Assembly: GCA_003576905.1 (NCBI GenBank)
Contig: QEVG01000011.1
Coordinates: forward strand, 1 to 64,000
Source: Planctomycetota bacterium
GTDB lineage: Bacteria; Planctomycetota; Phycisphaerae; UBA1845; UTPLA1
DNA length: 64,000 nt
Direction of reading: 5' to 3'
The first letter of the stretch is position 1; each line of letters opens with the position of its first letter. The position numbers and the translations under genes are program-made. Shown here one piece after another: positions 40,939-63,257 of this stretch. The notes below the pieces were generated by a model. The model saw only the letters and a program-made list of their open reading frames with translations. It was not told where the DNA came from and searched no databases.

Positions 40939-41014
40939 CGGGGCGTAGCTCAGCCTGGTCTAGAGCGTCTGCATGGGGTGCAGAAGGTCGCTAGTTCGAA
41001 TCTAGTCGCCCCGA
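40939..41014 (+). tRNA. tRNA-Pro (anticodon GGG)
   Basis: All four stems can be drawn. Acceptor CGGGGCG pairs with CGCCCCG, with A as the discriminator base. The anticodon stem TCTGC/GCAGA holds the loop ATGGGGT, so the anticodon is GGG. The T arm is GCTAG-TTCGAAT-CTAGT with a G-U end pair. No CCA is encoded. Its 3' end is the likely attachment site of the element to the right, and the serine recombinase gene overlaps its last bases. Confidence 0.92.
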
Positions 41015-42480
41015 GTTTGACTCGAAATCAACCCTTCGATGAGCACGTCGAAGGGCTTATTCACTTCATAGCAGAGAGTTGCGCCGTCGAGCGTGAAGTT
41101 CGAAAACACGATTTCGAGCAGTTGACGTTTTGCGGCGTAATCGGCCGAAAGCCATTTCTCGACAAGGGCTTGCGAAAGTTCGAAAACCCTGATCGCCAAT
41201 TCAGCCTGTTCGCCGCGGTCTCGGTTCGCAGCTTCGACGCGGAGTGATGCGGCCGCGATCTTGTCGCGGAGTTCCGTGGACTTGCGGGCGAAGGTGTCGG
41301 CGTCGACTTCGTCGAGCAGGCGGAGGTTGAGCAACCGGTCCTGTTGCTGTTGAAGCAGCGTTATCTCGCGCTGCGACACGTCGGATTGCGTGGATGCCTC
41401 GGCTCGTTCTCGCTTCGACCATTCGCGCAGGGCGTTCGAGAACCAGTCGCGGACGGTGTCGGGCTGCTTGATCGAGCGGAAGACGGCGAGGACCTGCTCG
41501 TCCAGCTTCGCCTCGTTGAGGCGAATCTGCGGATGCCCGGGCGCGAGCTTGTACATCGTGCAGCGGTAATAGACGTATTGCTTGCCGGTCGAGGGCTTGA
41601 CCACTTGCTCGCCCGTGATGAGGTTGCCGCAGTGGCCGCAGCGGATGAGGCCGCCGGCGTAGGTCAGCTCGTGCGAGCGGTAGGTCTTGCCGCCGAGCAG
41701 GACCTGCACGCGGTCCCAGGTCGCCCGATCGACGAGCGGCTTGTGCTTGCCGGGATACCACTGCCCGCCGTATTCGACTTCGCCCAGGTAGCACCGGTCA
41801 CGGAGGATCGCGTACACCGAGCTTCGCGGGAAGCGGGGAGAAGAGGGGCGGTATGTCAGCACTTCATCAGCAAGCCGGGCGATGAGCTGATCGATGGTCA
41901 GCGGCTCGTAGGCGTAGAGGTGAAAGATTCGCCGAACGGTTTCGGCGCGTGACGGATCGACTTCGATGACGCCGCGGCCGTCCTTGCGGACGTTCCTGTA
42001 GCCGTAGGGGGCGGCGCCGACGAACCAGCCTTCCTGGACGCGACGTTGATGCCCCTCGCGGACATCGACCGATTGCTGCTCCGTGTAAAACGAAGCCATG
42101 TTCGCCAACGTGCGCCGCATCATGCGGCCGGCGGGATTGTTGTCGGTCGGCTGCGAGACGGAGACGAAGGCAAGGCCGTGCTCGCTTTCCAGCCGTTCCA
42201 GTTCGACGTAATCGAACAGATTGCGGACGGCGCGATCGACCTTGTAGAACAGCAGCGCGTCGAGCTGCTCGGCGTTTTTCTTGGCGAAGGCGATCAGTTC
42301 CTTGAACGTCTTGCGTTCATCCCGCTTGCTCGCGGTCTCGGCGATGCGGAACAGGCGGACGATTTCGCCGTCGGTCGAAGCGGCATAGCGTTTAAGCGCG
42401 TCCTCCTGCACCGCCAGCGAGAAGCCCTCGCGTTCCTGCTCCCGGCTTGATACCCGCGCCAACGCAACGTACCGCTTCAT
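41002..42480 (-). CDS. Large serine recombinase (integrase)
   Basis: A 492-residue protein. The N-terminal catalytic domain starts YVALARVSSREQEREGFSL with the nucleophilic serine near residue 11, then DALLFYKVDRAVRNLFD and RRTLANMASFYTEQQS with the catalytic arginines. A recombinase domain follows (AAPYGYRNVRKDGRGVIEVDP) and a zinc-ribbon (LIRCGHCGNLITGE, with a later YYRCTMYKLAPGH) and coiled coil. Unusually, its last codons (QTRGD then TAG) are antisense to the 3' end of tRNA-Pro. It most likely drives integration and excision of the element at that site. Confidence 0.9.
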   Translation of the reverse strand: MKRYVALARVSSREQEREGFSLAVQEDALKRYAASTDGEIVRLFRIAETASKRDERKTFKELIAFAKKNAEQLDALLFYKVDRAVRNLFDYVELERLESEHGLAFVSVSQPTDNNPAGRMMRRTLANMASFYTEQQSVDVREGHQRRVQEGWFVGAAPYGYRNVRKDGRGVIEVDPSRAETVRRIFHLYAYEPLTIDQLIARLADEVLTYRPSSPRFPRSSVYAILRDRCYLGEVEYGGQWYPGKHKPLVDRATWDRVQVLLGGKTYRSHELTYAGGLIRCGHCGNLITGEQVVKPSTGKQYVYYRCTMYKLAPGHPQIRLNEAKLDEQVLAVFRSIKQPDTVRDWFSNALREWSKRERAEASTQSDVSQREITLLQQQQDRLLNLRLLDEVDADTFARKSTELRDKIAAASLRVEAANRDRGEQAELAIRVFELSQALVEKWLSADYAAKRQLLEIVFSNFTLDGATLCYEVNKPFDVLIEGLISSQTRGD

Positions 42481-44804: not shown

Positions 44805-46313
44805 TCAATGTCGCTGCCGGAATGTCACGGGCAGCCAGGTGCGGCCTGAGCCGCGGAATACTCTCCCATTCTGAAACACGATGCCGTCCACTTCCCAGCC
44901 GTGCGCCGGCCCCCCGGTGCGGAGCCGCGTGAACGCCGCCGGCTGGACTTCGTATTCGTAGCTCTCGGAGAACCCCGCGCTCGTGTGTCCGACCGGACCG
45001 AATACCGGCAGGCCGAGCATGGCGTTCATGTTGTCTTCCGGCGAGTAGGTGTTGTTGCCGTTGGCGAACAGTTGCTTCGAGCGGCCGATCAGGCTGGCTG
45101 ACCACTCCGGCGTCTTGTCCGTACAAGCGTGAAAGACCTTTGTGTTCAGGCATTGAAACAACGAGTGCGCCTCGTTCTGACCCTTGTCGCCGCCGCCCAG
45201 CGCAGCGTAGAAGTTTGTGGTGCTCTGTGACAGGTACACGGTCGCACACCGTGCCGAGCGACACGTGCTTTGAAACTGAAAGTCATACGAGGTCGTGAAC
45301 AGTTGCGCCTCGTCAGCCCAGAGAAACACGGGCCGCGGATTGGCCGCCGCGTCACGGCGCTCGATGCTGCGCATGAACGAATATTTCCACAGCACCTGGG
45401 CGAACTGCCCGACTTCCGCGTACTCTTTCACCGGCAGGTCGATAAGGATGATCTTTCCCTCTTCAACGGCCTTGGGCGTCACATTGGTGTCTTTGCAGAA
45501 CAACTCGCGCAGTACGCCGCGATTCAAAACGTCGGCCATCGACGTAAAGGTCGCCATGACGACGCTGCGCGTCTTGTCGCTCAGGTTCGGCCACTCCAGC
45601 AGGAAGAAGTCGGCGACGATGCCGAAGTCATGCTTCTGCCGCTCGGACTTTTCGCGCCGGTCCGCTTCCTTGAGGCAGTGGAAGCAGAATGACCGCTCCT
45701 GCCATCCTTTATCGTTGATCTGCGCCGACGAGGTCGGCGCCGAAAGACACAGCCGCACTAGGTCCGGCACCGACACGCGGCCTGTGGCCAAGGCCAACAG
45801 ATCGACCAGGTTGCGCATCAGTTGTCGATTGGTTCGACGCCAGAAGCTTTCGTCGCCGCGTCCGCCTTCCGTGCCCGAGTTGCGTTCCACGACTTCGAGC
45901 ACGTTAGCAAACAGGTTGACGATGCTCTCGGTATGACCGGCGCCGTCACCGGTGCGATTGAGTTCGAAGTCGAGAAAATTGAAGCGCAGGTCGGCCCGTT
46001 CACTTGGCGCAAAGACCAGAAGATCATCAAGACGGCCGGCTTCCTGGCAATACCGCTCCCATAGCGCCCGCTCGTCGGCCTTGGCCGTCAACACCAGCCC
46101 GCCGAATCCGGCGGCAAGATACGAACGTGCGATCGCCGCACCGGAGCCGCTGGTCTTGCCCGATCCCGTCGCGCCGAGGATCAGCGTCCCTTCAACCGCG
46201 TCGCGGAGCATCCACGCGTCGTCGCGCGTCCAGCGCAGGAGCGGCGTGGACAGTTCCCACTTTGCGATTGGCGCTCGGCGCTTGCTCATTCTTCGCCAGA
46301 GTGACGTGAGCAT
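44805..46313 (-). CDS. Type IV coupling protein (VirD4/TraD-like)
   Basis: A 502-residue ATPase starting at ATG 46313, after GGACGAATC. Walker A is LILGATGSGKTS near residue 47. Walker B is PVFLWADEAQLFTTSYDFQF. Further family features are RNLVDLLALATG, IILIDLPVKEYAEVGQFAQVLWK and the sensor region TVYLSQSTTNFYAALGGGDKG. No membrane segment is seen at the N-terminus, unlike VirD4 and TrwB. It brings the relaxase-DNA complex to the secretion channel. A membrane-protein gene lies just downstream. Confidence 0.82.
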   Translation of the reverse strand: MLTSLWRRMSKRRAPIAKWELSTPLLRWTRDDAWMLRDAVEGTLILGATGSGKTSGSGAAIARSYLAAGFGGLVLTAKADERALWERYCQEAGRLDDLLVFAPSERADLRFNFLDFELNRTGDGAGHTESIVNLFANVLEVVERNSGTEGGRGDESFWRRTNRQLMRNLVDLLALATGRVSVPDLVRLCLSAPTSSAQINDKGWQERSFCFHCLKEADRREKSERQKHDFGIVADFFLLEWPNLSDKTRSVVMATFTSMADVLNRGVLRELFCKDTNVTPKAVEEGKIILIDLPVKEYAEVGQFAQVLWKYSFMRSIERRDAAANPRPVFLWADEAQLFTTSYDFQFQSTCRSARCATVYLSQSTTNFYAALGGGDKGQNEAHSLFQCLNTKVFHACTDKTPEWSASLIGRSKQLFANGNNTYSPEDNMNAMLGLPVFGPVGHTSAGFSESYEYEVQPAAFTRLRTGGPAHGWEVDGIVFQNGRVFRGSGRTWLPVTFRQRH

Positions 46314-46468
46314 GATTCGTCCTTTCGTTCCTGCATGATCTCGCCGTCGTGCGACTCGGAATTGCACAGGATGCGCTCCGCCGCGTCGCGTATAACGCTT
46401 CCGACGGCTCGGCAAGTCAGGCCGAGCAGGAGGTAGGTGCATGTCATTCCGTAAGGCAGTTCATTCAC
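46286..46468 (-). CDS. Small hydrophobic protein, 60 residues
   Basis: GTG at 46468 is preceded by GGGAGAAACGCC. The protein is VNELPYGMTCTYLLLGLTC with a short hydrophobic stretch, then a hydrophilic charged tail ending ERKDESCSRHSGEE. The stop falls 28 bases into the coupling protein gene. The ribosome site and operon position support it. Role unknown. Confidence 0.5.
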   Translation of the reverse strand: MNELPYGMTCTYLLLGLTCRAVGSVIRDAAERILCNSESHDGEIMQERKDESCSRHSGEE

Positions 46469-46777: not shown

Positions 46778-46849
46778 TCAGCAGTCGGCGGAACCGCCGC
46801 CGGACAGGATGGCAAGCAGAACGGTCAATGCGACTCTCAGCGCTTTCAT
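46778..46849 (-). CDS. 23-residue peptide coupled to the ParB-like gene
   Basis: MKALRVALTVLLAILSGGGSADC, preceded by AGGAGTCGTTCCC. The start overlaps the stop of the ParB-like gene as ATGA. The sequence looks like a short signal or lipoprotein-type peptide. Very short, so moderate to low confidence. Confidence 0.35.
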   Translation of the reverse strand: MKALRVALTVLLAILSGGGSADC

Positions 46850-47670
46850 GGGAACGACTCCTTTCTGGCGAGCGCCTGCGCGGCCTCCGCCAGTTGCATG
46901 TCCTGCGCGAGCCCGCAGATACGCTTCAGCAGGTCTTGCAGGATTTCACTCAGGGTTTGCAGTGTGACGGTTGGTGTGCCGATCACGATTGAGCAGCCAT
47001 CGCAAAGAGGAATCACGCAACGGTCGCCCTGGGCGAGGGAACGCCCGCGGGATGCCCTGCGCCCTTTTGACTTGCGGCTTCTGTTTCGCTCGGAAACACT
47101 CGATCGCGTCAGGTGACCGTTTGTCGCTTCGCTTATGAGGGCGGCTCTGATTTCCGCGTCCCCAGTGCGGGCAATGGCGTAGGCCGTGCTCATGCCCAGT
47201 GTGCCGGCGGCGATCTGTTCCTGGGCCTCGTCAGGCAATTCCAGCACGGCCAACAGCTTCGTCACGGTTGCCGGCGATATTCCGATTCGCTGCGCGACCT
47301 GCGAAGCCGTCCAGCCCGACTCCTGCATCAGCGCCTGGATCGCCTTGGCCCGCTCAACAGCCGTCAAATGCTCTTTCTGGCAATCGAGCACGAGTTGGTA
47401 GTGCAGTACCTCGGCGTCGCTGAGTTCGCGATCGTCAATAATGGCCGCTACTGTCTGCTCGCCTCGACGGATCAGGGCGTCGATTCGCCTTGCTCCGTCC
47501 AGAAGCCGCAACGTGTTACCGCGCCGGTAAAGATGGACGGGCGCCAACTGGCCGACTTCCGACGTGCTCCGCGCGAGCCCGACTTGACTTTCTTCGTTAA
47601 ACGTCGTTCGCGGCTGTGGCGGGCGTTCAATCGACGCGATGAGCACATGCTGAATGGCCTTGTCTTCCAT
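46846..47670 (-). CDS. ParB/RepB-like nuclease or partition protein
   Basis: A 274-residue protein starting at ATG 47670 after AAGGAGCATTCTC. ParB-like N-terminal domain: QLAPVHLYRRGNTLRLLDGARRIDALIRRG. The central part TAVERAKAIQALMQESGWTASQVAQRIGISPATVTKLLAVLELPDEAQ is a helix-turn-helix of the KorB/ParB type. The C-terminus has no recognised domain. It may regulate the transfer operon or help maintain the element; no partner ParA is seen. Confidence 0.78.
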   Translation of the reverse strand: MEDKAIQHVLIASIERPPQPRTTFNEESQVGLARSTSEVGQLAPVHLYRRGNTLRLLDGARRIDALIRRGEQTVAAIIDDRELSDAEVLHYQLVLDCQKEHLTAVERAKAIQALMQESGWTASQVAQRIGISPATVTKLLAVLELPDEAQEQIAAGTLGMSTAYAIARTGDAEIRAALISEATNGHLTRSSVSERNRSRKSKGRRASRGRSLAQGDRCVIPLCDGCSIVIGTPTVTLQTLSEILQDLLKRICGLAQDMQLAEAAQALARKESFP

Positions 47671-47716
47671 GAGAATGCTCCTTGATCCGGGATTCGGCTT
47701 ACCGTCGGAATCGTGC

Positions 47717-48331
47717 TCACAAGCACAACTCCATGCGCTTGCCGCAGGTCTCACATCGCAGATTCACGGTGGCGACGCCGAAACGGCCGACGGTGCAACC
47801 GCAGGACCACTTCTTTTGTTTGGAATGCCCGCGCGGCCGGCGTTCGGGAATCGGCGACTCCGTCGCCGGGGCCTCGACCCCGAATTGCCCGAGCAGCGCC
47901 TTGAAGGGTCCGCCCGCGGCATAGCCGGTGAGACCGGTCGGCCCGATCAACAACCCGAGTTGCGCCGCTTTCTCGCGGAGTTCCCTGTTGTGGTGATTTT
48001 TCTTGCTCGGACTGCCGTGCGCCTGCTGCCAGCCGTGCAACAGTTCATGGAGCAGGGTGCCGAGGATTTCCCACAAGGGGCGCTTCCCGTCCAGGTATCG
48101 GGCGTTCAGAGTGATTTCGCCGCGAAGGCCCAGACCGTTATGCCCCATGCGGAACTGGCCGTACCGCGTGCAGGGAAGTGGGTCGATGCCGATAACGACT
48201 TCGGGAATGTCGAGATTAAACTCCGCGACAAACCGATCCGCCCACGTCTGAAGCAGTTCGATCATCGACTGGCCGTGCCAGGGCTCGGCACGTTGATGTT
48301 CTGCGAGATTATCGTAGATTCGCTGACTCAA
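47717..48331 (-). CDS. SprT-like zinc metalloprotease
   Basis: A 204-residue protein read from the TTG at 48331, which has GGAG eight bases upstream. A longer ATG start at 48367 is possible, but no spaced ribosome site precedes it. The catalytic motif is ILGTLLHELLHGWQQAHG, with further histidines in KKNHHNRELREK. The C-terminus has a zinc-ribbon (WSCGCTVGRF, then LRCETCGKRMEL). The SprT/Spartan family cleaves proteins crosslinked to DNA. Here it may serve relaxase or DNA-bound protein turnover. That role is inference. Confidence 0.75.
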   Translation of the reverse strand: MSQRIYDNLAEHQRAEPWHGQSMIELLQTWADRFVAEFNLDIPEVVIGIDPLPCTRYGQFRMGHNGLGLRGEITLNARYLDGKRPLWEILGTLLHELLHGWQQAHGSPSKKNHHNRELREKAAQLGLLIGPTGLTGYAAGGPFKALLGQFGVEAPATESPIPERRPRGHSKQKKWSCGCTVGRFGVATVNLRCETCGKRMELCL

Positions 48332-48496
48332 CTTGGTGTCTCCTAGCGGGTCGTTTTCGGGGCACATCCTTCTCAGATGCGCTTACTTGACCGCCTCCGC
48401 CGGACACCTTAAGTATTGTCAGCGATTGACCTTAATGATGGTCTGAAGTGTGGTAATGTTTGTCGCGAAGTGTGGCTTTGTCCCCCAGGCCGTGTT

Positions 48497-51010
48497 CTAA
48501 ACCCTTCCCTTAATATACTCTTGACCAGCCATAGTCGCTCTGTACTGCCGCCACTTACCCGCCTTGCCGCGTGTTCGCACTTCGATTAACCCGCGCCTCA
48601 AGAGCTCTTGAATCTTCTCCTGGGCATCTTCTCGGCGACGATCGTAGTCTGCGTGTCCAAACCAATCGAACTTTGACCGCCATGCATGTTCCGGACTTCG
48701 CCGTTCACTCTCTCGAATACGCACCAGTGCCTCAAGAAGACACTCTGCGTCGACCGAGATTTCTTCGCCTAATCCCGTCTCAAGTCCTATTCCCGAGCCT
48801 GATCCCACGCGAACCCACTCATCCGCACCAATCAGTGGCTCTCCAATGATGCTCCGCAATTCGCCGTCAATGAGCGCACGAATTCGCCTAGCCTCCTGCT
48901 CGGGACATCCTGATATCGCAACGAACACTTCCGTACCATCGGGAGTGTTCCTGGCTGTATCATTGCGTCCGATCACCATTCGCACGGTGGCTTCCATATT
49001 TGGAGCAATCGCCACCGTGATCTCGTCGCGCCAAATGGCTGCTTGGTCACGTGACGCCTGCCGGTGCAAGCGTCCCACCAATCGGCAGAATGCACTCTCA
49101 GAAAGCCAACGGAATCTTCGTCGCCACACGTAGTCACCGCGAGGAGCGTCACGAGCCGCTCGAGCGTCCAGGTGATCCGGAACCAGGTATTCGACCCTGC
49201 CGCTCTGGTGCCTCGCCTCAAACATGAGCTCACACGCCAGCATCACTCTAATGATCCGCTGCCGATCCACCCTAGTGAATTCGCATCGCTCCCACAATGT
49301 GTGCCCAGTGGCATTCGTCGAGTGCTCCGGCAGGACCGTCTCAATCTGCTTTGGGCTAAGCAGACCACGCACACTTAGGTCTCGCCCTTTAGTCATAACG
49401 CGATACAACGGTACTCGTAGCCACTCGGGATTAAACAGGAGGCCCTTCAACTCATCAGTTTCGCTCACATCGGTCCGTAGCCCGGCGTAATAGACTATCC
49501 CGAGGCTGTGCGCAATTCTTAAGGCGGCCAGGATGTGGCCATCATCTAATCCGCCATCCCGACAACGCTCCTGAAACGTGCTAAGTTCGAGGTATGGCAT
49601 TTCGGAACTCTGATTGCGTCGCAGCCCCTCGCGTTCAAGCCACCCAATGGCACTAGAAAACAACGGGGAGTACCTGTTCAGAACTCCGGGTATATACCCC
49701 ATTGACTCGATGAGGCGTCGCTCAAGCGTCTCAATCGCCGTCCAATGTCGAGTGCGAATAGCCTCATCTACACCTGCGTGAACGGCATCTGACCATCCGA
49801 TGCCGTCATGCACTTCTAACAGGGTATCCGTAGGCAGCCCAACTGAGGCGCGAAGTTCGTCAGCAGAAAGTGCTTCAAGTTGACGAGGAATGGTCTCGTC
49901 TCGGCGCGCATCGTACAAGTCACACTTACACACGACGACAAATATTGGACACTGCGGCGAGGCTTCGTTCTTGATCAGGTGGAGCCAGTAATCCAAGCGG
50001 TTCTCGTCGCGAGTGCGTGTGGCATCGCATACAATCACAAAAACGCATCGGCGATCGGAAAGAAAGAGCCGGTGTGTGCTATGCATTTCTCGTTGGCCCG
50101 CAAAATCCAAGACGCGAGCGATGAGCGCCTCCTCCTCGAACAACAGCGGCATGCGCACTGTCCATGTGTAAGAATCAAAGCCGATCGTGCGTGGTGGGTT
50201 CGGTACGAAGTAATCGGTGTGCTTGTCAAAAAGCCGACGGCGAAGATGACTCTTCCCTACACCCCCCTGGCCGACGATAAGCACGCTGGCGAAGTTCAAG
50301 ATTCTGCGTGAGTCCAAGAGAGTCGCTGCATACATTATCCAATGCTCTTTGTCGTGGTATTCCGATATCAGCTCCGGAACTTCACGCAGTGGATTGTGCC
50401 GAATGTAGATTGTCTTTAATGACTCTCGCCAAGGGGGTCCGAGTACTGCCGGCAGGAGATGGGCGAAGCCCAAATCGGTTATTCCGCAGCGAGCGAGTTC
50501 GAGGTGCTGTAGCTGCGCGAGACGCGGCGCGTAGTACGCAAGAACCGACGCGCCGTCATCACCTAACGGATTACGGTTGAGCGAAAGTGCAATTAGTTGC
50601 TCAAGAAGCGAGGCACGTTGAAGCCAGTTGGATAACGAGTCAGCAGTAATGGCGTTATCGTCCAGGTCGATCGCCGTGAGTGCAGTTAGTGTATCGTGGA
50701 GGTGAATCAATGCTTTCAGGCCATCGTCACCAAGTTCGCAGTCGGCAAGCGACAGCCGCTGGATTGGTCCAATGTGCGCGAAGAGTGTTCGAAGGTGATT
50801 CACTTCAAGATGACCAAGACTGTGCCCGTTGAGCAATAGGTGTGTGACCGCCTGAAAGCTGCCCGGCTTACAGGTGCGGATCAACCATCGAATGTCCGGC
50901 GCACGGAGCCGGAAGCCCAGCGCATCGTGAGACAAGTCGAGAATTGGGCTCGCACGATCCTGTGCTTCGCTAAGCGCCAAGCTCAACATCTTTCTCTGAG
51001 AAGTATTCAT
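48497..51010 (-). CDS. Roco protein: LRR, Roc GTPase and COR domains
   Basis: A protein of about 837 residues from the ATG at 51010 (MNTSQRKMLSLALSEAQ); an in-frame extension to 51166 is less likely. Positions below count from 51166. Ribonuclease-inhibitor-like LRRs lie at about 110 to 245 (LSLNRNPLGDDGASVLA). The Roc domain has the P-loop VGQGGVGKS at 298-306, DFAGQ at 354-358 and CKCD at 413-416 in place of NKxD. A COR domain follows (GLLFNPEWLRVPLYRV near 575). The tail near 850 looks like a winged helix (IQELLRRGLIEVR). Codon use looks less GC-rich than around it, suggesting recent transfer. Confidence 0.85.
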   Translation of the reverse strand: MNTSQRKMLSLALSEAQDRASPILDLSHDALGFRLRAPDIRWLIRTCKPGSFQAVTHLLLNGHSLGHLEVNHLRTLFAHIGPIQRLSLADCELGDDGLKALIHLHDTLTALTAIDLDDNAITADSLSNWLQRASLLEQLIALSLNRNPLGDDGASVLAYYAPRLAQLQHLELARCGITDLGFAHLLPAVLGPPWRESLKTIYIRHNPLREVPELISEYHDKEHWIMYAATLLDSRRILNFASVLIVGQGGVGKSHLRRRLFDKHTDYFVPNPPRTIGFDSYTWTVRMPLLFEEEALIARVLDFAGQREMHSTHRLFLSDRRCVFVIVCDATRTRDENRLDYWLHLIKNEASPQCPIFVVVCKCDLYDARRDETIPRQLEALSADELRASVGLPTDTLLEVHDGIGWSDAVHAGVDEAIRTRHWTAIETLERRLIESMGYIPGVLNRYSPLFSSAIGWLEREGLRRNQSSEMPYLELSTFQERCRDGGLDDGHILAALRIAHSLGIVYYAGLRTDVSETDELKGLLFNPEWLRVPLYRVMTKGRDLSVRGLLSPKQIETVLPEHSTNATGHTLWERCEFTRVDRQRIIRVMLACELMFEARHQSGRVEYLVPDHLDARAARDAPRGDYVWRRRFRWLSESAFCRLVGRLHRQASRDQAAIWRDEITVAIAPNMEATVRMVIGRNDTARNTPDGTEVFVAISGCPEQEARRIRALIDGELRSIIGEPLIGADEWVRVGSGSGIGLETGLGEEISVDAECLLEALVRIRESERRSPEHAWRSKFDWFGHADYDRRREDAQEKIQELLRRGLIEVRTRGKAGKWRQYRATMAGQEYIKGRV

Positions 51011-51129
51011 GCGGCTGCCACTGGCGCTCAGCGCGAGTAGATGCGTAGGGCACGCAATTCGGCTTGCTCCAATCGACAAAGCGTGATACGTCGTAAACAT
51101 AGAATCGAACGACTCGAATGTAGGTACCC

Positions 51130-51429
51130 GTGCTTCCGGACAATGCCAGTATCGCAATTCTGACAAAGCTCAATGAACTTGCCGAGAGACATGGTCTCCA
51201 CCCTTGTGAATTCGTCGCATCGTTGGAGACGACGCGAGCAGGCGTATCTGTACTCTGCTTTGACTCGCCTCCCGAGAATGAACAGGCGGCGGAGCGATTC
51301 GCTCGCATGTTGGAGCATTTGGGCGTGGAGGAGGACAGTCTTCAATGTAATGGCACGGACGCTCAAATCTACGACCGTATCATTGCCGCCCTAAAGCGCG
51401 CCCCAGCGATGCGACCTCATCGATCATAG
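51130..51429 (+). CDS. 99-residue unknown protein divergent to the Roco gene
   Basis: Read from GTG 51130. The sequence has two helical stretches (LTKLNELAERHGLHPCEFVA and ENEQAAERFARMLEHLGV) and no membrane segment or recognised domain. The start lies about 120 bases from the likely Roco start and is divergent, so shared control is possible. It has no clear ribosome site; its frame and length favour a real gene. Confidence 0.5.
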   Translation: MLPDNASIAILTKLNELAERHGLHPCEFVASLETTRAGVSVLCFDSPPENEQAAERFARMLEHLGVEEDSLQCNGTDAQIYDRIIAALKRAPAMRPHRS

Positions 51430-51685
51430 TCGAAGCCAGCCATAACTCACATCCGCACGTGCGAGCCGCGATGTGAAGTGGTCACGGCCACAAGCCTTGC
51501 AATGCATGTTGCTACGATACAACGCATTGGTCGATGCCGATGATCCACAACGACGGCGCCATTAATCCTTCTTTAACTCATCCATGGTATACTCGATTGT
51601 GGTAGACAAAAGGTGTTATACACCCCGAGTTAACGGGCAGGGGGCGCGTTAACGGTTCGGCAACCCTTCACGGCACGGAGGTCGC
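51430..51685. promoter_or_regulatory. Repeat-bearing control region upstream of the tyrosine recombinase
   Basis: GGTGTTATACACC at 51612-51624 is a perfect palindrome (GGTGT, three bases, ACACC). GTTAACGG occurs at 51629-51636 and again at 51648-51655, a 19-base period. TATACT near 51593 could be a -10 box. These fit operator or recombinase-binding sites. Not proven. Confidence 0.5.
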
Positions 51686-52717
51686 TTGAGTGACCACGAC
51701 ATCATTCCACATCCCGACCGGGCGCTTTCGGCGTCGCTCGAATCGACCGAGCCGCCGGCGATCGTCGCCCAGGCCAGCGTCAACGCCCGGTTCGCTTACG
51801 CCGAATTCTTCGGCGACTCGCTGAACAACGATTATACCCGCAAGGCGTACCGGTTCGCGGTGCATCGGTTCCTGCTGTGGTGCGAGGACCAGGGCTTCGA
51901 GCTGGCCCGCATTCCGCCGGGCAGCGTCGGCCACTACATCCGCACGCTGACGACGACTGAGGGCAAGCCGGCCTCGAAGCCGACCTGCAAGCTGCACCTG
52001 GCCGCGATCCGCAAGTTCTTCGACGTGATGGTCCAGCGGCACGCCATCGTGCTCAACCCGGCGGCGGCGGTGCGCGGACCGAAGGTGAGCAACGTCACCG
52101 GCAAGACGCCGGCGACCGATCCCGCTAGCGCCGGTTCGCTGTTGAGGTCGATCGACGTGAGCAACGTCGTCGGATTACGCGACCGGGCGATTCTCGCCAT
52201 CATGATGTACACCGCCGCCCGCGTCGGCGCGGTCGCCAAGCTGCGCCGCCGCGACTTCTACACCGACGGCCGCCAGTGGTACCTGCGCTTCGATGAGAAA
52301 GGCGGCCGCCAGCGCGACATTCCTTGCCGGCACGACTTGCAGGGCTACATCCACGAATACATCGACGCCGTCGGCGACTCGCTCGATGCCGACGAGCCCC
52401 TGTTCCGCTCGGCCCGCGGTCGCACGGGACAACTCGCCACCTGGGCGTGCCAGTCCAAGGACATTCACCGCATGGTCAAGCGGCGGTTGGCAGCTGCGGG
52501 CCTTCCGACGATCCTCACCTGCCATTCCTTCCGCGCCACCACGGCCACCGACCTCCTCGACCAGGGCGTCCCCTTGGAGGATGTACAGGAGCTGCTCGGC
52601 CACGCCGATCCGCGCACGACCCGGCTCTACGACCGCCGCGACCGCAAGGTGACGCGGAATATCGTTGAGAGGATTTCGATCAAGGTGGAAGGCAGTTCCA
52701 ATCCGACACAGTCGTAA
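51686..52717 (+). CDS. Tyrosine recombinase (XerC/D-like)
   Basis: A 343-residue protein from TTG 51686, preceded by GGAGGTCGC. The N-terminal core-binding domain includes YAEFFGDSLNNDYTRKAYRFAVHRFLLW. The catalytic domain shows YTAARVGAVAKLRRRDF, CHSFRATTATDLLDQGVPLEDVQELLGHAD and RLYDRRDRK, giving arginine, HxxR, histidine and the nucleophilic tyrosine. It could resolve dimers or integrate another element. It is a second recombinase class beside the serine one. Confidence 0.9.
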   Translation: MSDHDIIPHPDRALSASLESTEPPAIVAQASVNARFAYAEFFGDSLNNDYTRKAYRFAVHRFLLWCEDQGFELARIPPGSVGHYIRTLTTTEGKPASKPTCKLHLAAIRKFFDVMVQRHAIVLNPAAAVRGPKVSNVTGKTPATDPASAGSLLRSIDVSNVVGLRDRAILAIMMYTAARVGAVAKLRRRDFYTDGRQWYLRFDEKGGRQRDIPCRHDLQGYIHEYIDAVGDSLDADEPLFRSARGRTGQLATWACQSKDIHRMVKRRLAAAGLPTILTCHSFRATTATDLLDQGVPLEDVQELLGHADPRTTRLYDRRDRKVTRNIVERISIKVEGSSNPTQS

Positions 52718-52800
52718 TGGGGCTTGTCATCGTCGCCCGGCGGCGCTATCAATGCGTGCCTCATCTCTCATCTACTACTACAACTTCAAGAGGACGCCAC

Positions 52801-53007
52801 ATGACCCAGCCCAGCCCGCTACACGTCGCCAACACCGCCCAGCAGATGGCCCGCATGGCTCCGAAGAACGACGCCGTCGTATTCAACCGTGTGGCGATGA
52901 TATGCATGGGGGTGATGGCCGCGGCAGCGGTCGTGCAGATGCTTCAGCCGTTGTTGCGGGAGATCAATCGCAAGCGCGAAAAAGAGCATAACGGCCGAGG
53001 TCGATGA
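52801..53007 (+). CDS. Small membrane protein, 68 residues
   Basis: The ATG at 52801 follows GAGGACGCCAC. NRVAMICMGVMAAAAVVQMLQ is one membrane helix, and the C-terminus is basic (INRKREKEHNGRGR). No family recognised. It ends close to the convergent pilin gene. Confidence 0.6.
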   Translation: MTQPSPLHVANTAQQMARMAPKNDAVVFNRVAMICMGVMAAAAVVQMLQPLLREINRKREKEHNGRGR

Positions 53008-53011
53008 TGGC

Positions 53012-53401
53012 CTATAGGCACCTGAAACCTGTTATTGCCCAGGTCAGGTCGTTGGCGCCGAATAGCACGCCGATTCCGACACAGACCATGATTGCCATTC
53101 CCCACGATACCTTGCCAAGCGTCGCTCCGACCCCCAACGCAACGATTGCAAGGGTCGCCAACCCGCGGCCTATGTCGTCGTGAATGAGCCACCAGACACT
53201 GCACAGTATGTCGCCAATCGACTGCGCATTCGCTGGTTCGCCGAACAACACGCACGTGACCAGCACCGTGACGATCAAGCATGGTCCCTCATGCCGCACC
53301 CCAGCCTGGTCCTTGAACTGCCTAAGCCATCGGTGATGCACCCGAATCCGCGATAAATCCCCACTCTTTCGGCCGATGCGGCATCGTATTGTCAACGTCA
53401 T
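53012..53401 (-). CDS. VirB2/TrbC-like conjugative pilin
   Basis: A 129-residue protein read from ATG 53401, with GGGAGA just before. After a basic lead comes a signal-like segment (CLIVTVLVTCVLFGEPANAQS). The mature part IGDILCSVWWLIHDDIGRGLATLAIVALGVGATLGKVSWGMAIMVCVGIGVLFGANDL has the two membrane helices and GKVSWGMA pattern of TrbC/VirB2 pilins. It would form the conjugation pilus. A later GTG at 53299 is another possible start. It stands apart from other T4SS genes. Confidence 0.72.
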   Translation of the reverse strand: MTLTIRCRIGRKSGDLSRIRVHHRWLRQFKDQAGVRHEGPCLIVTVLVTCVLFGEPANAQSIGDILCSVWWLIHDDIGRGLATLAIVALGVGATLGKVSWGMAIMVCVGIGVLFGANDLTWAITGFRCL

Positions 53402-53406
53402 TCTCC

Positions 53407-53508
53407 CTACGCGATCCAGACGAACAGAATCGCGGCCCCGCACACTAACCACATGATTGCGAGAATCCGCCGACTCGGCGCTTGTTGTTGATGCGTGCCC
53501 TGACTCAT
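53407..53508 (-). CDS. 33-residue membrane micropeptide before the pilin
   Basis: Starts MSQGTHQQQAPSRR, followed by one membrane helix (ILAIMWLVCGAAILFVWIA). GGAGCCTTCC precedes its ATG. It stops five bases before the pilin start, same strand. Confidence 0.5.
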   Translation of the reverse strand: MSQGTHQQQAPSRRILAIMWLVCGAAILFVWIA

Positions 53509-53720
53509 GGAAGGCTCCTCTCAAGTATCCTGACATACTGTGCTTAAGAAATAGTTAACGCCGCCCGACGCGATTGAGCCCGCAAGCAGATGAGAACGAT
53601 GGCCGACAAGAACCACGGTCGAGGCACTGTTCAGGATGGCGAAGGCCGCCAGCTGTCCCCTGATTCCGCTCCAGATGGCCGATCGCTCGACGCCATGTGG
53701 CGGGTACAATGTTCCCTGCC

Positions 53721-54299
53721 ATGGATAGCAGCGACGCCCAGGCCGAGCGGTTGATCTTTGATGAGTCCCTTCCCGCCGAGGAACGGGCAAGGCTGCTTCT
53801 GCCCCTCGTCTATCAACAGCTTCGGGCCTGCGCCCAGGAGCAGCTTCGGGCCGAGCGTCCGGGTCACACGCTCAGCGCAACGGCACTCGTCCACGAGGCG
53901 TGGCTCAAACTGGCCGGCCCACGCGAGGTGCCGTGGCAAAGCTGCGCGCATTTCCTCGATGCCGCCGTCAAAGCCATGAAGCAGATTCTGCAGGACTATG
54001 GCAAGGCTCGTAGGCGCGTGAAGCGCGGAGGCGGCCGCGCCCGCTTGGACCTCGATGCGGCAGTGACGATTTCAGCCTGCGACGACGAGAATCCCTGGGA
54101 TTCTGATGCCCTGGACCAGGCGATTCGTCGCTTAGGGGAAAAGGACCCGCGTGCTGCAAGAATCGTCGAGTGGCGATTCTATACCGGGTTGACCAACGCC
54201 CAGGCCGCCCAGGCACTCGGGGTTTCTGAGGGAACCGTTAAGAATGACTGGAAGCACGCCCGAGCATGGCTTGCAGATCAACTCAATGGCCGGTTGTGA
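53721..54299 (+). CDS. ECF sigma factor of the planctomycete kinase-linked type
   Basis: A 192-residue protein from ATG 53721. The sigma2 region (RARLLLPLVYQQLRACAQEQLRAER, ATALVHEAWLKLAGP, ILQDYGKARRRVKRGGG) and sigma4 helix-turn-helix (WRFYTGLTNAQAAQALGVSEGTVKNDWKHARAWLADQL) match the ECF group that is common next to Ser/Thr kinases in planctomycetes. The kinase begins 18 bases later and probably controls its activity. Confidence 0.85.
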   Translation: MDSSDAQAERLIFDESLPAEERARLLLPLVYQQLRACAQEQLRAERPGHTLSATALVHEAWLKLAGPREVPWQSCAHFLDAAVKAMKQILQDYGKARRRVKRGGGRARLDLDAAVTISACDDENPWDSDALDQAIRRLGEKDPRAARIVEWRFYTGLTNAQAAQALGVSEGTVKNDWKHARAWLADQLNGRL

Positions 54300-54317
54300 A
54301 GCCTTCGGAAGACGAGG

Positions 54318-57041
54318 ATGACCGACACGCGCTACGAACGAAGGAAGGCCCTGTTCCTGGCCGTCAGCGAACTCAACGACTCCGAGCGGCAAGCGTTTCT
54401 TGATCGCGAGTGCGCCGGCGATGACGACCTTCGGCGCGAAGTTGAAGCGCTCCTGAAGGCTCCGGCCCCGGACCGACTCAAACCGGGTGGAGCTTTGGAA
54501 ATCGTCGGAGTTTCATCCGACGATTCCATCGTGAGCCATTCCCCCGGAGCGAACATTGGCAATTATCGGCTGCTCGAACGAATCGGCGATGGTGCGTTCG
54601 GTGAGGTGTGGGTGGCCGAGCAGGAGAATCCGATCCGGCCTCGGGTCGCCCTCAAGATTCTCAAAGCCGGGATGGATACGCGCGAGGTGCTGGCGCGATT
54701 CGAGGCCGAACGCCGCGCCTTGGCAAAAATGAACCATCCAAACGTGGCCAAGGTACTAGACGCCGGAGCCACGCCCCAGGGACGTCCCTACTTCGTGATG
54801 GAATACGTGCCGGGCGTACCGATCACCGAGTATTGCGACACGTCGCGCTTGAGCATCCGGCAGCGGCTTGAACTGTTCGTCGAGGTCTGTCGAGGAGTGC
54901 AGCATGCGCACCAGCGCGGGATCATTCACCGCGACCTGAAACCGCATAACATCCTTGTGACGATCCACGGCGGCCGGGCCGAACCGAAGGTCATCGACTT
55001 TGGAGTCGCGAAGGCCGCGCTGGGCGATGAGGACGAGGAAACGTTCAAGACCGAAGCAGGCCGTGGCATCGGCACCCCGGAATACATGTCGCCCGAGCAG
55101 ACCGGAAAGGTCGAGTCGGATACCGATGTACGAACGGACGTATATTCGCTCGGCGTGGTGCTCTACGAACTCCTGACGGGTACCTTGCCGTTGGACTTTC
55201 GCTCCATGCGCCGGGCGAGGTTCGACAAGATCGCCGAGATGATTTGCGAGTCCGATCCTCCCACGCCCAGCACGCGGCTCTCGACCCTTGCGAGCGCCTC
55301 CGTCACTCGTACGAACGGGGCCGAACCGGAGACGCTATCCGCCTCGCGCGGTTGCACGCTTCATGCGTTGGTTCGCAGTCTTAAGGGTGATCTCGACTGG
55401 ATCGTCGCCAGGACGCTCGAAAAGGACCGCAGACGCCGTTACGAATCCGTAGCAGCACTGGCCGAGGACATTCGTCGGCACTTAGATCACCAACCTGTGA
55501 TCGCCGCGCCTCCCAGCACGGCATATCGATTCCATAAGCTTGTGCGCAGGCACCGGAACGCAGTGGCCGCCGGCGGCTTTGCAATCGTCGTGTTGCTCCT
55601 GGCGACTGTGATCTCGATCTACTTCGCGTACCGCGAGCGACTGCAATCGCAGTTGGCCCATGAAGCACGGGTCCAAGAATCAGCCCATCGACGGGAGGCA
55701 GAAGCGGCGCGCGACCGCGCCCTTGCGATCAAGCGATTCTTGATCGAGGCACTGCAATCTCACGATCCGCACGCGCCGGGCGGGCGCACGGACATGCTTG
55801 TCAGCGAAGCAATGCATCGTGCCATCGACCTGCTTGACGAAGGGCATCTGAAGGAGCAGCCCCGGGTTGTCACCGAACTGTTGAACTCGATTTCGACTAT
55901 TCTCTTGAATTTGGGCAAGCCAAGCGAGGCAGAGCAAGTTGCGCGACAAGCCCTTCAGTGGTACGAAACGAATCATCATGATGACGAATCAGACAAAGCC
56001 GAGTGCCAAGGAAACTTGGGATTCTGCCTTATAAGCCTCGGGCGACCTGATGACGCCTTGGAGCAGTTTGAAGCAGCACTGAAAATCAAGCGCCGAGCGC
56101 ATTCCCAGCACGACCTTGTTACCGTGAAACTGCTGAACGGAATCGGCTTCGCGTTCGAAGACTTAGGGCGACCTGCCGAGGCGTTGCCTTATCATGAGGC
56201 TGCTTTGGAGTCGTGCTCAACTCTGACCATCGGCGACCATAATGAACTTGCGGCTTGCATTGGTAATCTCGCCTCCTGTCTCAGTTCGCTCGGACGCCCG
56301 GAGGACGCGCTTCCGAGGTACCAGGAAGCACTGGACATGTGCCGCCGGATCTTCGACGGCGATCATCCCGACGTGGCGACGGGACTGAACAACGTGGCCC
56401 ATTGCCTGAAGGCCATGGGACGAAACCCCGAGGCAGAAATGCGATATCGCGAGTCCCTCGCCATGCGCGAGCGACTTTGGCCGAAGGACCATCCCGACGT
56501 TGCGGAGTCCCTCGGAAATCTTGCCGACTGTCTCTTCAATCAAGGGCAGCTTCACGAAGCGCTGCCCTTGTACGAGCGTTGCGTATCCATGCTTGAGAAC
56601 ATCTATGGCCCCGACCATCCTCGTGCTGCGACAGCCAGGTTCGGCATGTCAGCGTGTCTTGCGGCGTTGGGCCGCAAGCCAGAGGCTGCTGAGCAACTTC
56701 GTACGGTCATTCGAATCCGCCGCCAGATTCTGCCGCTCGTGCATCCCGATACGGCAGTAGCGGAAATGAGCCTCGGCGGCCTGTTGATTCAGATTGGCGA
56801 ATTTGAGCAAGCCGAAGCCCTCTTGCTCGACGTGGAGAACCGACTGCGCGACCGTGATGATGTTCCACGCTTTACGCGAAGGTGCAGTCTCACCGTGCTC
56901 ATCAAACTCTACGATACTCTCGACCGCGCAGCCCCGAACAGCGGGCACGACGCGAAAGCGGCTGTGTGGAAGGGAAGGTTGGCCGAATTCGACGCCGACA
57001 CGACCGCTCCCTCAAACAGCCCGACTTCAGACAAGCCATAG
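54318..57041 (+). CDS. Membrane Ser/Thr protein kinase with TPR sensor region
   Basis: A 907-residue protein. Kinase domain from about 84 to 370 with GDGAFGEVWVA, lysine 113 (ALKILK), HRDLKPHN at 204-211, DFG at 227-229 and the activation-loop GTPEYMSPEQ. One membrane segment at about 415 to 437 (NAVAAGGFAIVVLLLATVI). The outer part is a long run of TPR repeats (LGRPEDALPRYQEALDMCRR and similar). It probably senses a partner with its TPR domain and phosphorylates the adjacent ECF sigma factor or its regulator. Confidence 0.9.
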   Translation: MTDTRYERRKALFLAVSELNDSERQAFLDRECAGDDDLRREVEALLKAPAPDRLKPGGALEIVGVSSDDSIVSHSPGANIGNYRLLERIGDGAFGEVWVAEQENPIRPRVALKILKAGMDTREVLARFEAERRALAKMNHPNVAKVLDAGATPQGRPYFVMEYVPGVPITEYCDTSRLSIRQRLELFVEVCRGVQHAHQRGIIHRDLKPHNILVTIHGGRAEPKVIDFGVAKAALGDEDEETFKTEAGRGIGTPEYMSPEQTGKVESDTDVRTDVYSLGVVLYELLTGTLPLDFRSMRRARFDKIAEMICESDPPTPSTRLSTLASASVTRTNGAEPETLSASRGCTLHALVRSLKGDLDWIVARTLEKDRRRRYESVAALAEDIRRHLDHQPVIAAPPSTAYRFHKLVRRHRNAVAAGGFAIVVLLLATVISIYFAYRERLQSQLAHEARVQESAHRREAEAARDRALAIKRFLIEALQSHDPHAPGGRTDMLVSEAMHRAIDLLDEGHLKEQPRVVTELLNSISTILLNLGKPSEAEQVARQALQWYETNHHDDESDKAECQGNLGFCLISLGRPDDALEQFEAALKIKRRAHSQHDLVTVKLLNGIGFAFEDLGRPAEALPYHEAALESCSTLTIGDHNELAACIGNLASCLSSLGRPEDALPRYQEALDMCRRIFDGDHPDVATGLNNVAHCLKAMGRNPEAEMRYRESLAMRERLWPKDHPDVAESLGNLADCLFNQGQLHEALPLYERCVSMLENIYGPDHPRAATARFGMSACLAALGRKPEAAEQLRTVIRIRRQILPLVHPDTAVAEMSLGGLLIQIGEFEQAEALLLDVENRLRDRDDVPRFTRRCSLTVLIKLYDTLDRAAPNSGHDAKAAVWKGRLAEFDADTTAPSNSPTSDKP

Positions 57042-57277
57042 GCCGGCGTCGGACCGCTTCTACACGTCAACGGCGGAGCTTGGCATCGCTGCGCCGGCAT
57101 CCACTCCCCCCCATCAGGGTTTTGCAGAATTCGTTGTCTTGTTCCCGCTTAAACGTCGCTTAGGGAGGCGGGCCCGGGTTTCGACCCGTTCTCGCAGGGC
57201 CGGTGCCGTGCGAGCCCCCCCGACAAAGTGCCCCCGCATAGAACGCGTCGGGCAGACAGTTACGCGAGGAGATTGCC

Positions 57278-60088: not shown

Positions 60089-62755
60089 TTACACCCGCTC
60101 CCGTTCCGCCTCGGCAACGCGCGCTGTCTCCGGCTCACGCGGGCGCAGGCTTTCCAGTCGATGCAGCGTCGCCGCGCGCCGGCGGAGATTCCTCAAGAGA
60201 ATTTGCCGTTCAGGCAACCCACCGCCGGCAACGAACTCGGTCGCCGACAGGCGCTCGTCGGAACGGTTGACCGCATCGAGCAGCGCGTCCTTGTCGTCCG
60301 TATAGACGGTGACGCCTTCCCTGCCCCGGCTGGCCGAGACGTAGAACTGTTCGCGCGAACTTGCGGGGAATGACTGCGACGACTGCCCGATGAGCACGCG
60401 ATCGACTGTCTTCCCCTGGCTGGCATGACTGGTGACAACATACCCATGCGATAGGTGCCCGTAATCGCGGGCGATTTTCCAGTTGTTGGTGAGCACGATG
60501 TTGCCTTCGCCGTCGAACTTTTTCACCGTGAAAATCGCCCCGTTATTCAAGCGATGCCGGCCATCGAGCGTCTTGCCGTTACGGGTGATTCGCACCGCAT
60601 CGCCCGGCGCCAGCGGCAGGATGCTCGGTCGGTACACCTGGTACTTGGCCGCTTCGCCCGTGGGCGCCGGTCCGTCGCCCAGCACGACGCGCTCGCCTTT
60701 CCTGATGCCCTTGGCGTTCTGGTGGAACACCAGCACGTCGCCGGCGTTGAGATTGACCGCGTCGGCCCGCTCGGCTTCGGTGAGGTTGGCGGCTTCGAGC
60801 GCAATGAAGCGGCGCTCGCCGTCGCCGAGCCTGCCCAGTTGCTTGAGCCGCCCACGAATCTCATCGGTGCACCATTCCCCTTCGAGATGGGTTGGACTTA
60901 CCACCAGCGCCGTCTTGCCCTGTTCGACCGTCGCGACGTAATCCTCCGCCAGCGCCCTGTAGCGTTCGGTCTCCCCGACTTCCCTGATCCAGCCCAGCTT
61001 GTCCAGTTGCGCGAAGCCCTCGTCGATGCGGCCTTCGCTGAGCGCCTTCACTGCTTCCTTGTACGCGCCCTTCTGCCGTTTGATGTCGCGGATTTCGGCG
61101 GGAACGAGGCTGGCCTCGTCCTCGAGCAGCCGTAGCGCCGCACCGCGCTCGACGCTTCCATGCTGTCGCGCATCTCCTGACAGGATCACGCGGGCGTCGA
61201 GTTGCTTCGCCAGGTCGAACACTTGCGCCATTTGCCGCGTGCCCAGCAGTCCAGCCTCGTCAATCCAGATGACGTTGCTGGCGACCGCGCGTTGTAGGTC
61301 GGTATCGACCAGCAGCCGCGCCACGGTGTCGGCATCCTGAAAGCCCTCGCTTCGCAGCACGCCGCGGCTGGCATCCGCCGACGGGGCGAAGGTGAACACG
61401 CGCCGGCCCGCCGCTTCGATCGCTTCGACCGCCTCCTGCATCATCGTCGTCTTGCCGGTGCCGGCCGCGCCGCGCACGATAATGACCCGGTCCGGCGAGT
61501 CGACGACATGCAGCACGGCCCGTCGCTGCTCGTCGCTGAGCTTCTCGCGCTTGAACGTATGTTCGCCGGCGACGAGCCGCCGGCAGCTTCCCCTGCCCTC
61601 GCGCGCGAAGCAGATCATGCCGCGCTCTTCGTCGAGCACCGCTTTCGTCGTCGCCAGATTCCGTCCGTCGCGCCGGGCGATGACCAGCCCCTGCCCCTTG
61701 AGCTTGTTCTCGACGGTCGAAAGCGTGGCCGCGCCGACGGAACGCTTCAGCGCTTCCGTGACCAGCTTGCGTTCGGCAACCACCGAACTTCGCTCGAAGC
61801 AGTGCTCGACCGCCCGGTGTGCCGCCTCCGTGGCGATCCGGTCGTCTTCGGCAATGGCGTCGCCGCCGATGCTTTCGCGGACGTTCCGCAGTGCGTCCCA
61901 CTCGTCCTGGTCGAGCCGCGACTTCCAGTTGTCCTGCAACTGGGCGAGCGTCATGTCCTTCTGCTTTTTCTCGCGTGTCTTCGCGCCAAGGTCGCCCTTG
62001 GCCTCCGCATCGGTGATGCCGCGCTCTCTCGCTTCCCTCTCAATCAGCGCCGTCCGCCGCGAGAACTTGTCGAGCGCCGACGGGGGCAGCCCGGAGAGCT
62101 CCCAGCCCTTCCTCGTTCGTTCGACATTGAGGCCCAGTTCCTCCAGCCGCCTGGCCAGCCGGGAATGGAACACCGCCTCGAAGAACGGCGCGTCGCGCTT
62201 GAGGTCGGCGAATTGCCCCGCTTTCCAGCGCTGCTCCGCATCGTCCCACGTGGCGTTGAACACGAAGCAGTGCGCGTGCAGATGCGGGTCCGGCACGCCC
62301 TCGACGGGCCGCGCCGTCGTGTGCACGAATTCGCCCCACACCATGTTGCCGGTCGTGCGGTCCTCGTTGCGACCTCCGCTGCGGACGCGCGTCTTCATCT
62401 CCGTTTCGATGTCCTGCATCGTCGCATCGACCGACTCGCGGAAGGCGTCGAGGATTCGCTCGTCCTGCGTCAGGCCGTAAAGCAGCGACACGCTCTTGGG
62501 CACGTGGAAGTTGAAGTCGTACCCGACGCGGCGCTCGCTTCGCCTTCGCGCTGTCAGCACGTCGCCGGTTGTGGGGTCGCGGTTGTCGCAGAGGGCATCC
62601 CAGTCTTCCCTGCGGACTTCGCCTTCGAGGCCGAGGCGCTTCGCGCCCTCGCCTTTCCACACGCCGGCCAGTTCCTGGCCTTCGGTGTAGTAGTCGGCCG
62701 TCGAGTAGTAGCTCTTCGCGCCGGCGGCGTTGCTGTTCAGTATGATGCGGAGCAT
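60089..62755 (-). CDS. MobF-type relaxase-helicase (TrwC/TraI-like)
   Basis: An 888-residue protein from the ATG at 62755 (MLRIILNSNAAGAKSYYSTADYYTEGQELAGVW). The relaxase part has the paired tyrosines, RRVGYDFNFHVPKSVSLLY and the metal motif DPHLHAHCFVFN. A RecD-like helicase follows with P-loop VRGAAGTGKTTMMQEA, IWIDEAGLLGTRQMA, SGDARQHGSVERG and the closing HGYVVTSHASQGKTVDRVLI. It would nick oriT and unwind the transferred strand. A GTG start at 62767 is an alternative. It is shorter than F TraI. Confidence 0.9.
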   Translation of the reverse strand: MLRIILNSNAAGAKSYYSTADYYTEGQELAGVWKGEGAKRLGLEGEVRREDWDALCDNRDPTTGDVLTARRRSERRVGYDFNFHVPKSVSLLYGLTQDERILDAFRESVDATMQDIETEMKTRVRSGGRNEDRTTGNMVWGEFVHTTARPVEGVPDPHLHAHCFVFNATWDDAEQRWKAGQFADLKRDAPFFEAVFHSRLARRLEELGLNVERTRKGWELSGLPPSALDKFSRRTALIEREARERGITDAEAKGDLGAKTREKKQKDMTLAQLQDNWKSRLDQDEWDALRNVRESIGGDAIAEDDRIATEAAHRAVEHCFERSSVVAERKLVTEALKRSVGAATLSTVENKLKGQGLVIARRDGRNLATTKAVLDEERGMICFAREGRGSCRRLVAGEHTFKREKLSDEQRRAVLHVVDSPDRVIIVRGAAGTGKTTMMQEAVEAIEAAGRRVFTFAPSADASRGVLRSEGFQDADTVARLLVDTDLQRAVASNVIWIDEAGLLGTRQMAQVFDLAKQLDARVILSGDARQHGSVERGAALRLLEDEASLVPAEIRDIKRQKGAYKEAVKALSEGRIDEGFAQLDKLGWIREVGETERYRALAEDYVATVEQGKTALVVSPTHLEGEWCTDEIRGRLKQLGRLGDGERRFIALEAANLTEAERADAVNLNAGDVLVFHQNAKGIRKGERVVLGDGPAPTGEAAKYQVYRPSILPLAPGDAVRITRNGKTLDGRHRLNNGAIFTVKKFDGEGNIVLTNNWKIARDYGHLSHGYVVTSHASQGKTVDRVLIGQSSQSFPASSREQFYVSASRGREGVTVYTDDKDALLDAVNRSDERLSATEFVAGGGLPERQILLRNLRRRAATLHRLESLRPREPETARVAEAERERV

Positions 62756-63257
62756 GGGGTTATTCACCGGTGAGGATCATTGAGGACAAACGTACATACA
62801 CAATTGTCCTCACGGTCTGCAAGTACCCCGATGGAACTTTGTGCAACTTGTTTCACGGTGGCACGAAGAAGACACGATCCGTCTCGCACCGCAACTGGCG
62901 ATTGCGTTGTCGCCGTGCCCGCGCGGCGATGCGGTCAACTCACACTTCCAGCATCCAAGTCGCATAGCACCTTGGCGCCGGTGCAGCCGGCCCGCCGTGG
63001 ACGGATTGCTTCGGCGTCTTACGGTCCCCTCTTCGCATCTTCGTGCCGTCCCGCCACACGCGGCCTTATCTGTGGCACTTACAGCCGCCGCCGGGCCGGT
63101 CAAGCAGAAAATCGTTTCCCCTTTCAGGGACCCACCATTTTCCGCTGTGACCGGTGCGCTGGCGCTTGGCTTCGCCCCCGGACTGTCGCGGCTTGTTTTG
63201 CAGTGCCATCAGGCCGCGATGGTCGCGGCCGGACACTTTCACAAGAGGAGACCAACA
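62756..63257. other. Control region upstream of the relaxase, no supported gene
   Basis: About 500 bases. It contains the 62781 inverted repeat. Otherwise several short frames appear but none has convincing protein features. The likely oriT and a promoter for the relaxase and the 63258 gene should lie here. Confidence 0.45.
62781..62812. repeat. Perfect inverted repeat before the relaxase, candidate oriT
   Basis: TGAGGACAA at 62781-62789 and its exact complement TTGTCCTCA at 62804-62812, with a 14-base loop rich in A and T. A third TGAGGA occurs at 62771. It lies 14 to 45 bases upstream of the relaxase start, a usual place for MobF oriT or a regulatory operator. Confidence 0.55.

Follow-up and report, generated by a model that had tools for sequence, protein, structure and literature searches.

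The roles of bacterial Roco proteins are almost entirely obscure according to a review (PMC6337361), and in two further papers (PMC5714945, PMC11052575) GTP turnover in these proteins is tied to a monomer-dimer transition. Kaur et al. 2021 (PMC8195603) predict that LRR-AP-GTPase-COR proteins with variable C-terminal domains form counter-invader systems. The Roco gene of the window (the whole stretch of 64,000 nucleotides analysed here) encodes a protein that shares leucine-rich repeats (LRR), the G1 and G3 motifs of the Roc GTPase domain and a COR-A domain with the group 1 Roco of Chlorobium tepidum (CtRoco; 3dpu, 6hlu, 8r4b; E 1e-10 to 1e-11 for the Roc part), and its N-terminal and central architecture, together with a variable C-terminal domain, with the systems of PMC8195603. 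It differs from CtRoco in its predicted C-terminal winged helix, in a G4 motif reading CKCD (TKCD in the related Roco of genome G596) instead of NKxD, and in its location within an exchangeable mobile-element cassette; it differs from the systems in the text of PMC8195603 in that its tail is related to stand-alone proteins of the same slot rather than being an effector described there, and in that neither an EAD nor another partner gene was recognised beside it. The tail is predicted to share its fold with MarR/ArsR-type regulators and the plasmid partition protein TubR (Z 9.5-11.0), whereas it matched no Pfam family by sequence and is fused to a GTPase. The surrounding element, in turn, resembles the MobF (TrwC/TraI) elements and plasmids of Planctomycetota such as pK2D_1 (CP036351), with which it has ParA/ParB genes and a 45% identical relaxase in common; unlike these plasmids, it appears integrated, with a large serine recombinase and a regulatory slot, and its small gene was not found on plasmids.

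The Roco gene (48497..51010, minus strand; 837 aa) was delineated from Pfam matches, relatives with solved structures (4wnr, 3dpu) and the homologue in G596. The N-terminal leucine-rich repeats, a feature of group 1 Rocos, span about residues 20-215 (50366..50953, minus; LRR_6, LRR_4 and LRR_1, with LRR_6 at 4.9e-9 in Pfam; ribonuclease-inhibitor type matches among solved structures). A Roc domain (residues 241-372; 49895..50290, minus; PF08477, 1.5e-17) and then a COR-A domain (residues 461-613; 49172..49630, minus; PF16095, 9.7e-11) follow, both over the Pfam cut-off, placing the protein among the Rocos; its relatives in the PDB are bacterial Roco proteins and LRRK2, the Parkinson's-linked GTPase. 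Within Roc lie the G1 P-loop GQGGVGKS (50249..50272, minus), the G3 motif DFAGQ (50093..50107, minus) and the G4 variant CKCD (49919..49930, minus), all as the original prediction had described them. In CKCD and the TKCD aligned with it, K and D are kept and N is replaced; NKxD is the usual G4 form in G proteins, and since variants occur it is not strictly defining. The protein is predicted to bind GTP. The longest reading frame opens with TTG at 51166, but we prefer ATG 51010: the homologue in G596 begins with an equivalent MN, and the TTG frame would overlap the small divergent gene. The ATG start leaves a 120-bp gap between the two genes.

Few genomes of this phylum have a Roco gene (a search of 392 found COR-A in 12), and the Roc domain of this protein was the single match in the whole genome. 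We found no close relative among 85,000 genomes or in the viral contigs searched, and the Rocos recovered from plasmids were distant (at most 27% identical).

We then compared the C-terminal tail (residues 750-833; 48512..48763, minus) with other proteins of the slot. Approximately these 85 residues showed a 46% match to a 187-aa stand-alone slot protein of G421, and a profile of three members, run against 114 genomes of the order, matched only the window, G421, G487 and G436, in every case within the slot; a fifth member, from G645, came from fetched loci. Thus all detected relatives of the Roco tail are four stand-alone proteins occupying the same slot, and the domain is absent from 15 further Roco-like loci of the phylum. 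An AlphaFold2 model based on four aligned sequences had winged-helix topology (pLDDT 86), with MarR regulators as the top Foldseek matches (prob 1.00, E 1.6e-3) and VIA scores of Z 11.0 against TubR (rmsd 2.2 over 85 residues) and of 9.5-10.9 against MarR-type chains. The tail is therefore predicted to be a MarR/TubR-like winged helix, which may bind DNA; winged helices serve also as protein-protein modules. The G596 Roco, in the same slot, ends in a different C-terminus without this domain, so the tail is not obligatory in slot Rocos.

The slot was defined by DNA alignment with an element of the same genus (G492, contig C22), which is 97.25% identical over 51558-59019 and 93% identical over 47801-48304. 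Between these break points the window carries 3253 bp (48305..51557) with the Roco and the small gene, whereas G492 carries about 2.5 kb encoding a LuxR/GerE-HTH protein (GerE, 3.4e-15) and two other proteins. The Roco and the small gene were replaced together as a block, and hence form one exchangeable unit, in agreement with the original view of the Roco as element cargo. Its reading of a less GC-rich locus was also upheld: GC is 0.55 across 48305-51557 against 0.62-0.64 on both sides, and GC3 (0.58) is below that of the neighbours. No repeat bounding both cassette ends was found. The slot is bordered on the left by a SprT-like protein gene (47717..48367, minus; a weak match below the Pfam cut-off, kept in several sister elements) and on the right by a Xer-like tyrosine recombinase gene (51686..52717, plus). 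G448, judged from the sequences, holds in this slot a cassette with proteins like those of G492, including the LuxR/GerE relative. G746 holds one with an XRE protein (HTH_3, 8e-8). Elsewhere the slot contains HEAT-repeat proteins, a recurrent domain of ~150 aa, XRE proteins, kinase/ECF pairs, transposases and, in two sister elements, VapBC-like pairs read by eye; its cargo is accordingly not all regulatory, given the VapBC-like pairs, HEAT proteins and kinases. Genes of sister elements were called with a simple composition-based script, which may miss small ones.

The small gene (51130..51429, plus; 99 aa) lies in the opposite direction about 120 bases from the Roco gene, where it had been predicted. 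A search of about 900 genomes returned homologues in seven others (32-46% identity, 13 invariant columns), and this conservation identifies the frame as a genuine gene; weak matches inside long frames in G273 and G152 were left out. Modelled on the eight sequences, the protein would adopt an alpha-beta-beta-alpha-beta-alpha fold (pLDDT 87) of no known family, with no Foldseek match at E <= 0.001 and nothing above Z 4.4 by VIA. Its neighbours vary. It is divergent to a Roco gene in two of the eight loci, the window and G596; the latter genome belongs to a different family of the order, and the two Rocos are 38-40% identical (E around 1e-143). The divergent position is taken by the gene for a stand-alone winged-helix protein in G421 and G645 and by that for a HEAT protein in G368. 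The XRE protein gene of G746 lies upstream in the same direction, and in G559 the contig ends and cuts off the neighbour. In G087 (L008:9614-9904) the homologue is distant and lies in a different, plasmid-like element, where the gene immediately divergent to it encodes a MobF relaxase. A winged-helix gene is thus divergent to the small gene in three loci (window, G645, G421).

Given the rarity of Roco genes in the phylum, the two shared placements are not a matter of chance. The recurrence anticipated by the original prediction is therefore present through G596, although six of the eight loci have another or a cut-off neighbour; the pairing is real but facultative, and we assign the small gene to the element rather than to the Roco. 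A dedicated Roco/small-gene system is ruled out by the same count. Our guess is that the small protein is a target or partner of whichever regulator occupies the slot. In an operator search between the two genes the best inverted repeat was within the range of shuffles, and no promoter-like site was found there.

The element around the cassette begins at its left end with a large serine recombinase (41002..42480, minus), homology in sister elements reaching to about 40.93 kb, followed by a TraD/VirD4-like coupling-protein-like ATPase (44805..46442, minus; weak TrwB/TraG-D matches below cut-off) and a ParB-like gene (46846..47754, minus). A MobF/TrwC relaxase-helicase gene lies to the right of the slot (60089..62767, minus; PF08751, 6.9e-71), and its closest plasmid relatives include three relaxases from Planctomycetota, which points to a probable host in that phylum. 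Further genes encode a DnaJ-domain protein, a TrbC/VirB2-like pilin and an ECF sigma/kinase pair, with ParA and RepA later on the contig. Sister elements are colinear with this one. A search of 114 genomes of the order with the coupling-like ATPase found 34 copies spread over 20 genomes, and the present genome has two of them. The original prediction placed the Roco in a conjugative element flanked by recombinases. The serine and Xer-like recombinases and the relaxase agree with this, and the pair expected of a self-conjugative element is present, with a strong relaxase match and a coupling-like ATPase match that is weak and below cut-off; however, both VirB4-type families tried (PF19044 and PF03135) are absent from the genome, which is 97% complete, and the pilin gene is all that was recognised of a transfer channel. 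We therefore claim no self-transfer: the element looks integrated and mobilizable rather than self-conjugative, as judged from its gene content.

For the locus as a whole, we put at about an even chance the reading that the exchangeable cassette serves to regulate the integrated MobF-type element around it, with the Roco as a regulator that binds DNA of this element under the control of GTP. We favour this reading because of the LRR-Roc-COR anatomy, the slot-specific tail and its winged-helix model, the three loci in which a winged-helix gene is divergent to the small gene, and the recognised HTH proteins (LuxR/GerE, XRE) in other slot cassettes. Against it count the use of winged helices as protein-protein modules, the different C-terminus of the G596 Roco, the slot cargo that is not regulatory and the lack of a significant operator-like inverted repeat between the two genes. 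The leucine-rich repeats would bind a ligand or signal, the Roc-COR part would switch between GDP- and GTP-bound states, probably dimeric and monomeric, and the winged helix would bind element DNA and act on its promoters, among them perhaps the one for the divergent small gene; the outcome may be control of maintenance, excision or transfer of the element. Binding to DNA as a dimer is common among winged-helix regulators, and the monomer-dimer transition of Roco proteins would then offer a simple link from switch to DNA. Somewhat less probable, and put forward tentatively, is the fuller proposal that this LRRK2-like Roco is an LRR-sensed, GTP-switched winged-helix factor for excision, copy number or transfer, in which a sensor became fused to the stand-alone regulator of the element. 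A Roco with a slot-specific tail of DNA-binding type would give a bacterial Roco a directly testable role, and the sister elements, with the tail alone or the cassette swapped, offer a small natural genetic system in which to read out the LRR-Roc-COR switch.

The main rival, which we regard as unlikely yet deserving of weight, casts the Roco as a sensor in intracellular defence: it would be a conflict protein of the STAND/NLR-like "AP-GTPase" kind whose LRRs sense a phage or competing element and whose variable C-terminus triggers cell killing or arrest with help from the small gene. The counter-invader prediction for LRR-AP-GTPase-COR proteins in the text of PMC8195603, the differing C-termini of the two element Rocos (window and G596), the low-GC exchangeable cargo typical of defence genes and a PD-T7-1-like gene elsewhere in the element are consistent with such a role. 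It is weakened by the tail, which is not among the effectors in that text (TIR, caspase, trypsin, DRHyd, FGS, GT4, EADs) and whose family was found only in the slot of these elements among the 114 genomes searched, and by PADLOC-DB 2.0, whose models matched neither the Roco nor the small protein nor the G596 Roco. The original suggestion of a defence or signalling module thus divides: signalling fits best, because the winged-helix tail is slot-specific, whereas defence lacks direct support at this locus, the clear defence gene lying elsewhere in the element.

That gene, the PD-T7-1-like anti-phage gene (PADLOC, 5.3e-189; L133:932-2386, contig C5 64932-66386), is inserted just right of the window; the sister elements L108 and L061 show no more than a short gap at this point, which marks it as a second cargo site. 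Farther along (L133:9655-18433, C5 73655-82433), a 961-aa PHP/SMC-type ATPase and a 1878-aa helicase-like protein stand in a row beside a DUF2130 gene; without a full match to any, the row resembles parts of several defence systems.

Improbable in our estimation is passenger cargo, in which a host-type Roco newly acquired beside an old element gene has no role for the element. The low GC and GC3 and the want of a close relative in 85,000 genomes would fit; against it, the same combination, with a Roco 38-40% identical, recurs at this slot in a genome from a different family of the order, the C-terminal domain is slot-specific, and the frame and its G1 and G3 motifs are intact. We regard as slightly less probable still a stability (addiction) or entry-exclusion cassette, in which the Roco and the small protein would be a killer/inhibitor pair keeping the element in the cell: the two genes are swapped together and VapBC-like toxin-antitoxin pairs, read by eye, occupy the slot in two sister elements, but the genes are divergent rather than in an operon, the small gene is mostly found without a Roco, and no toxin fold was recognised in either protein.

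Returning to the slot, we noted several recurrent features beside the regulatory cassette. HEAT-repeat proteins at this position (L007:10115-12010, L107, L121) have C-termini that may be of HTH type, judging by eye, and would then parallel the fusion in the Roco. As candidates for Roco-like HTH fusions they were left out of the evidence: the likeness to a LysR HTH was by eye only, the Pfam family HTH_1 matched the short relative at E 0.074, and comparing profiles gave no link to the Roco tail. The ~150-aa domain (motif YDEKK..A..VN.ELRR.GLAIRCP.TG.P), to which no family was assigned, occurs between ParB and the recombinase, alone or C-terminal in longer proteins (L101, L102, L105, L108, L109, L115, L116). 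Upstream of the Xer-like recombinase gene, the stretch 51597..51690, with GTTAACG-N12-GTTAACG at 51629-51654, is shared by sister elements that differ in all the sequence beyond it, and could be a recombinase operator or a recombination site. Many sister elements have, at this border of the slot, no Xer-like recombinase but in its place a pair consisting of a WGR-like protein of ~109 aa and a small serine resolvase (L007:9306-9635 for the former; relatives in L060, L061, L062, L107, L120 and L121).
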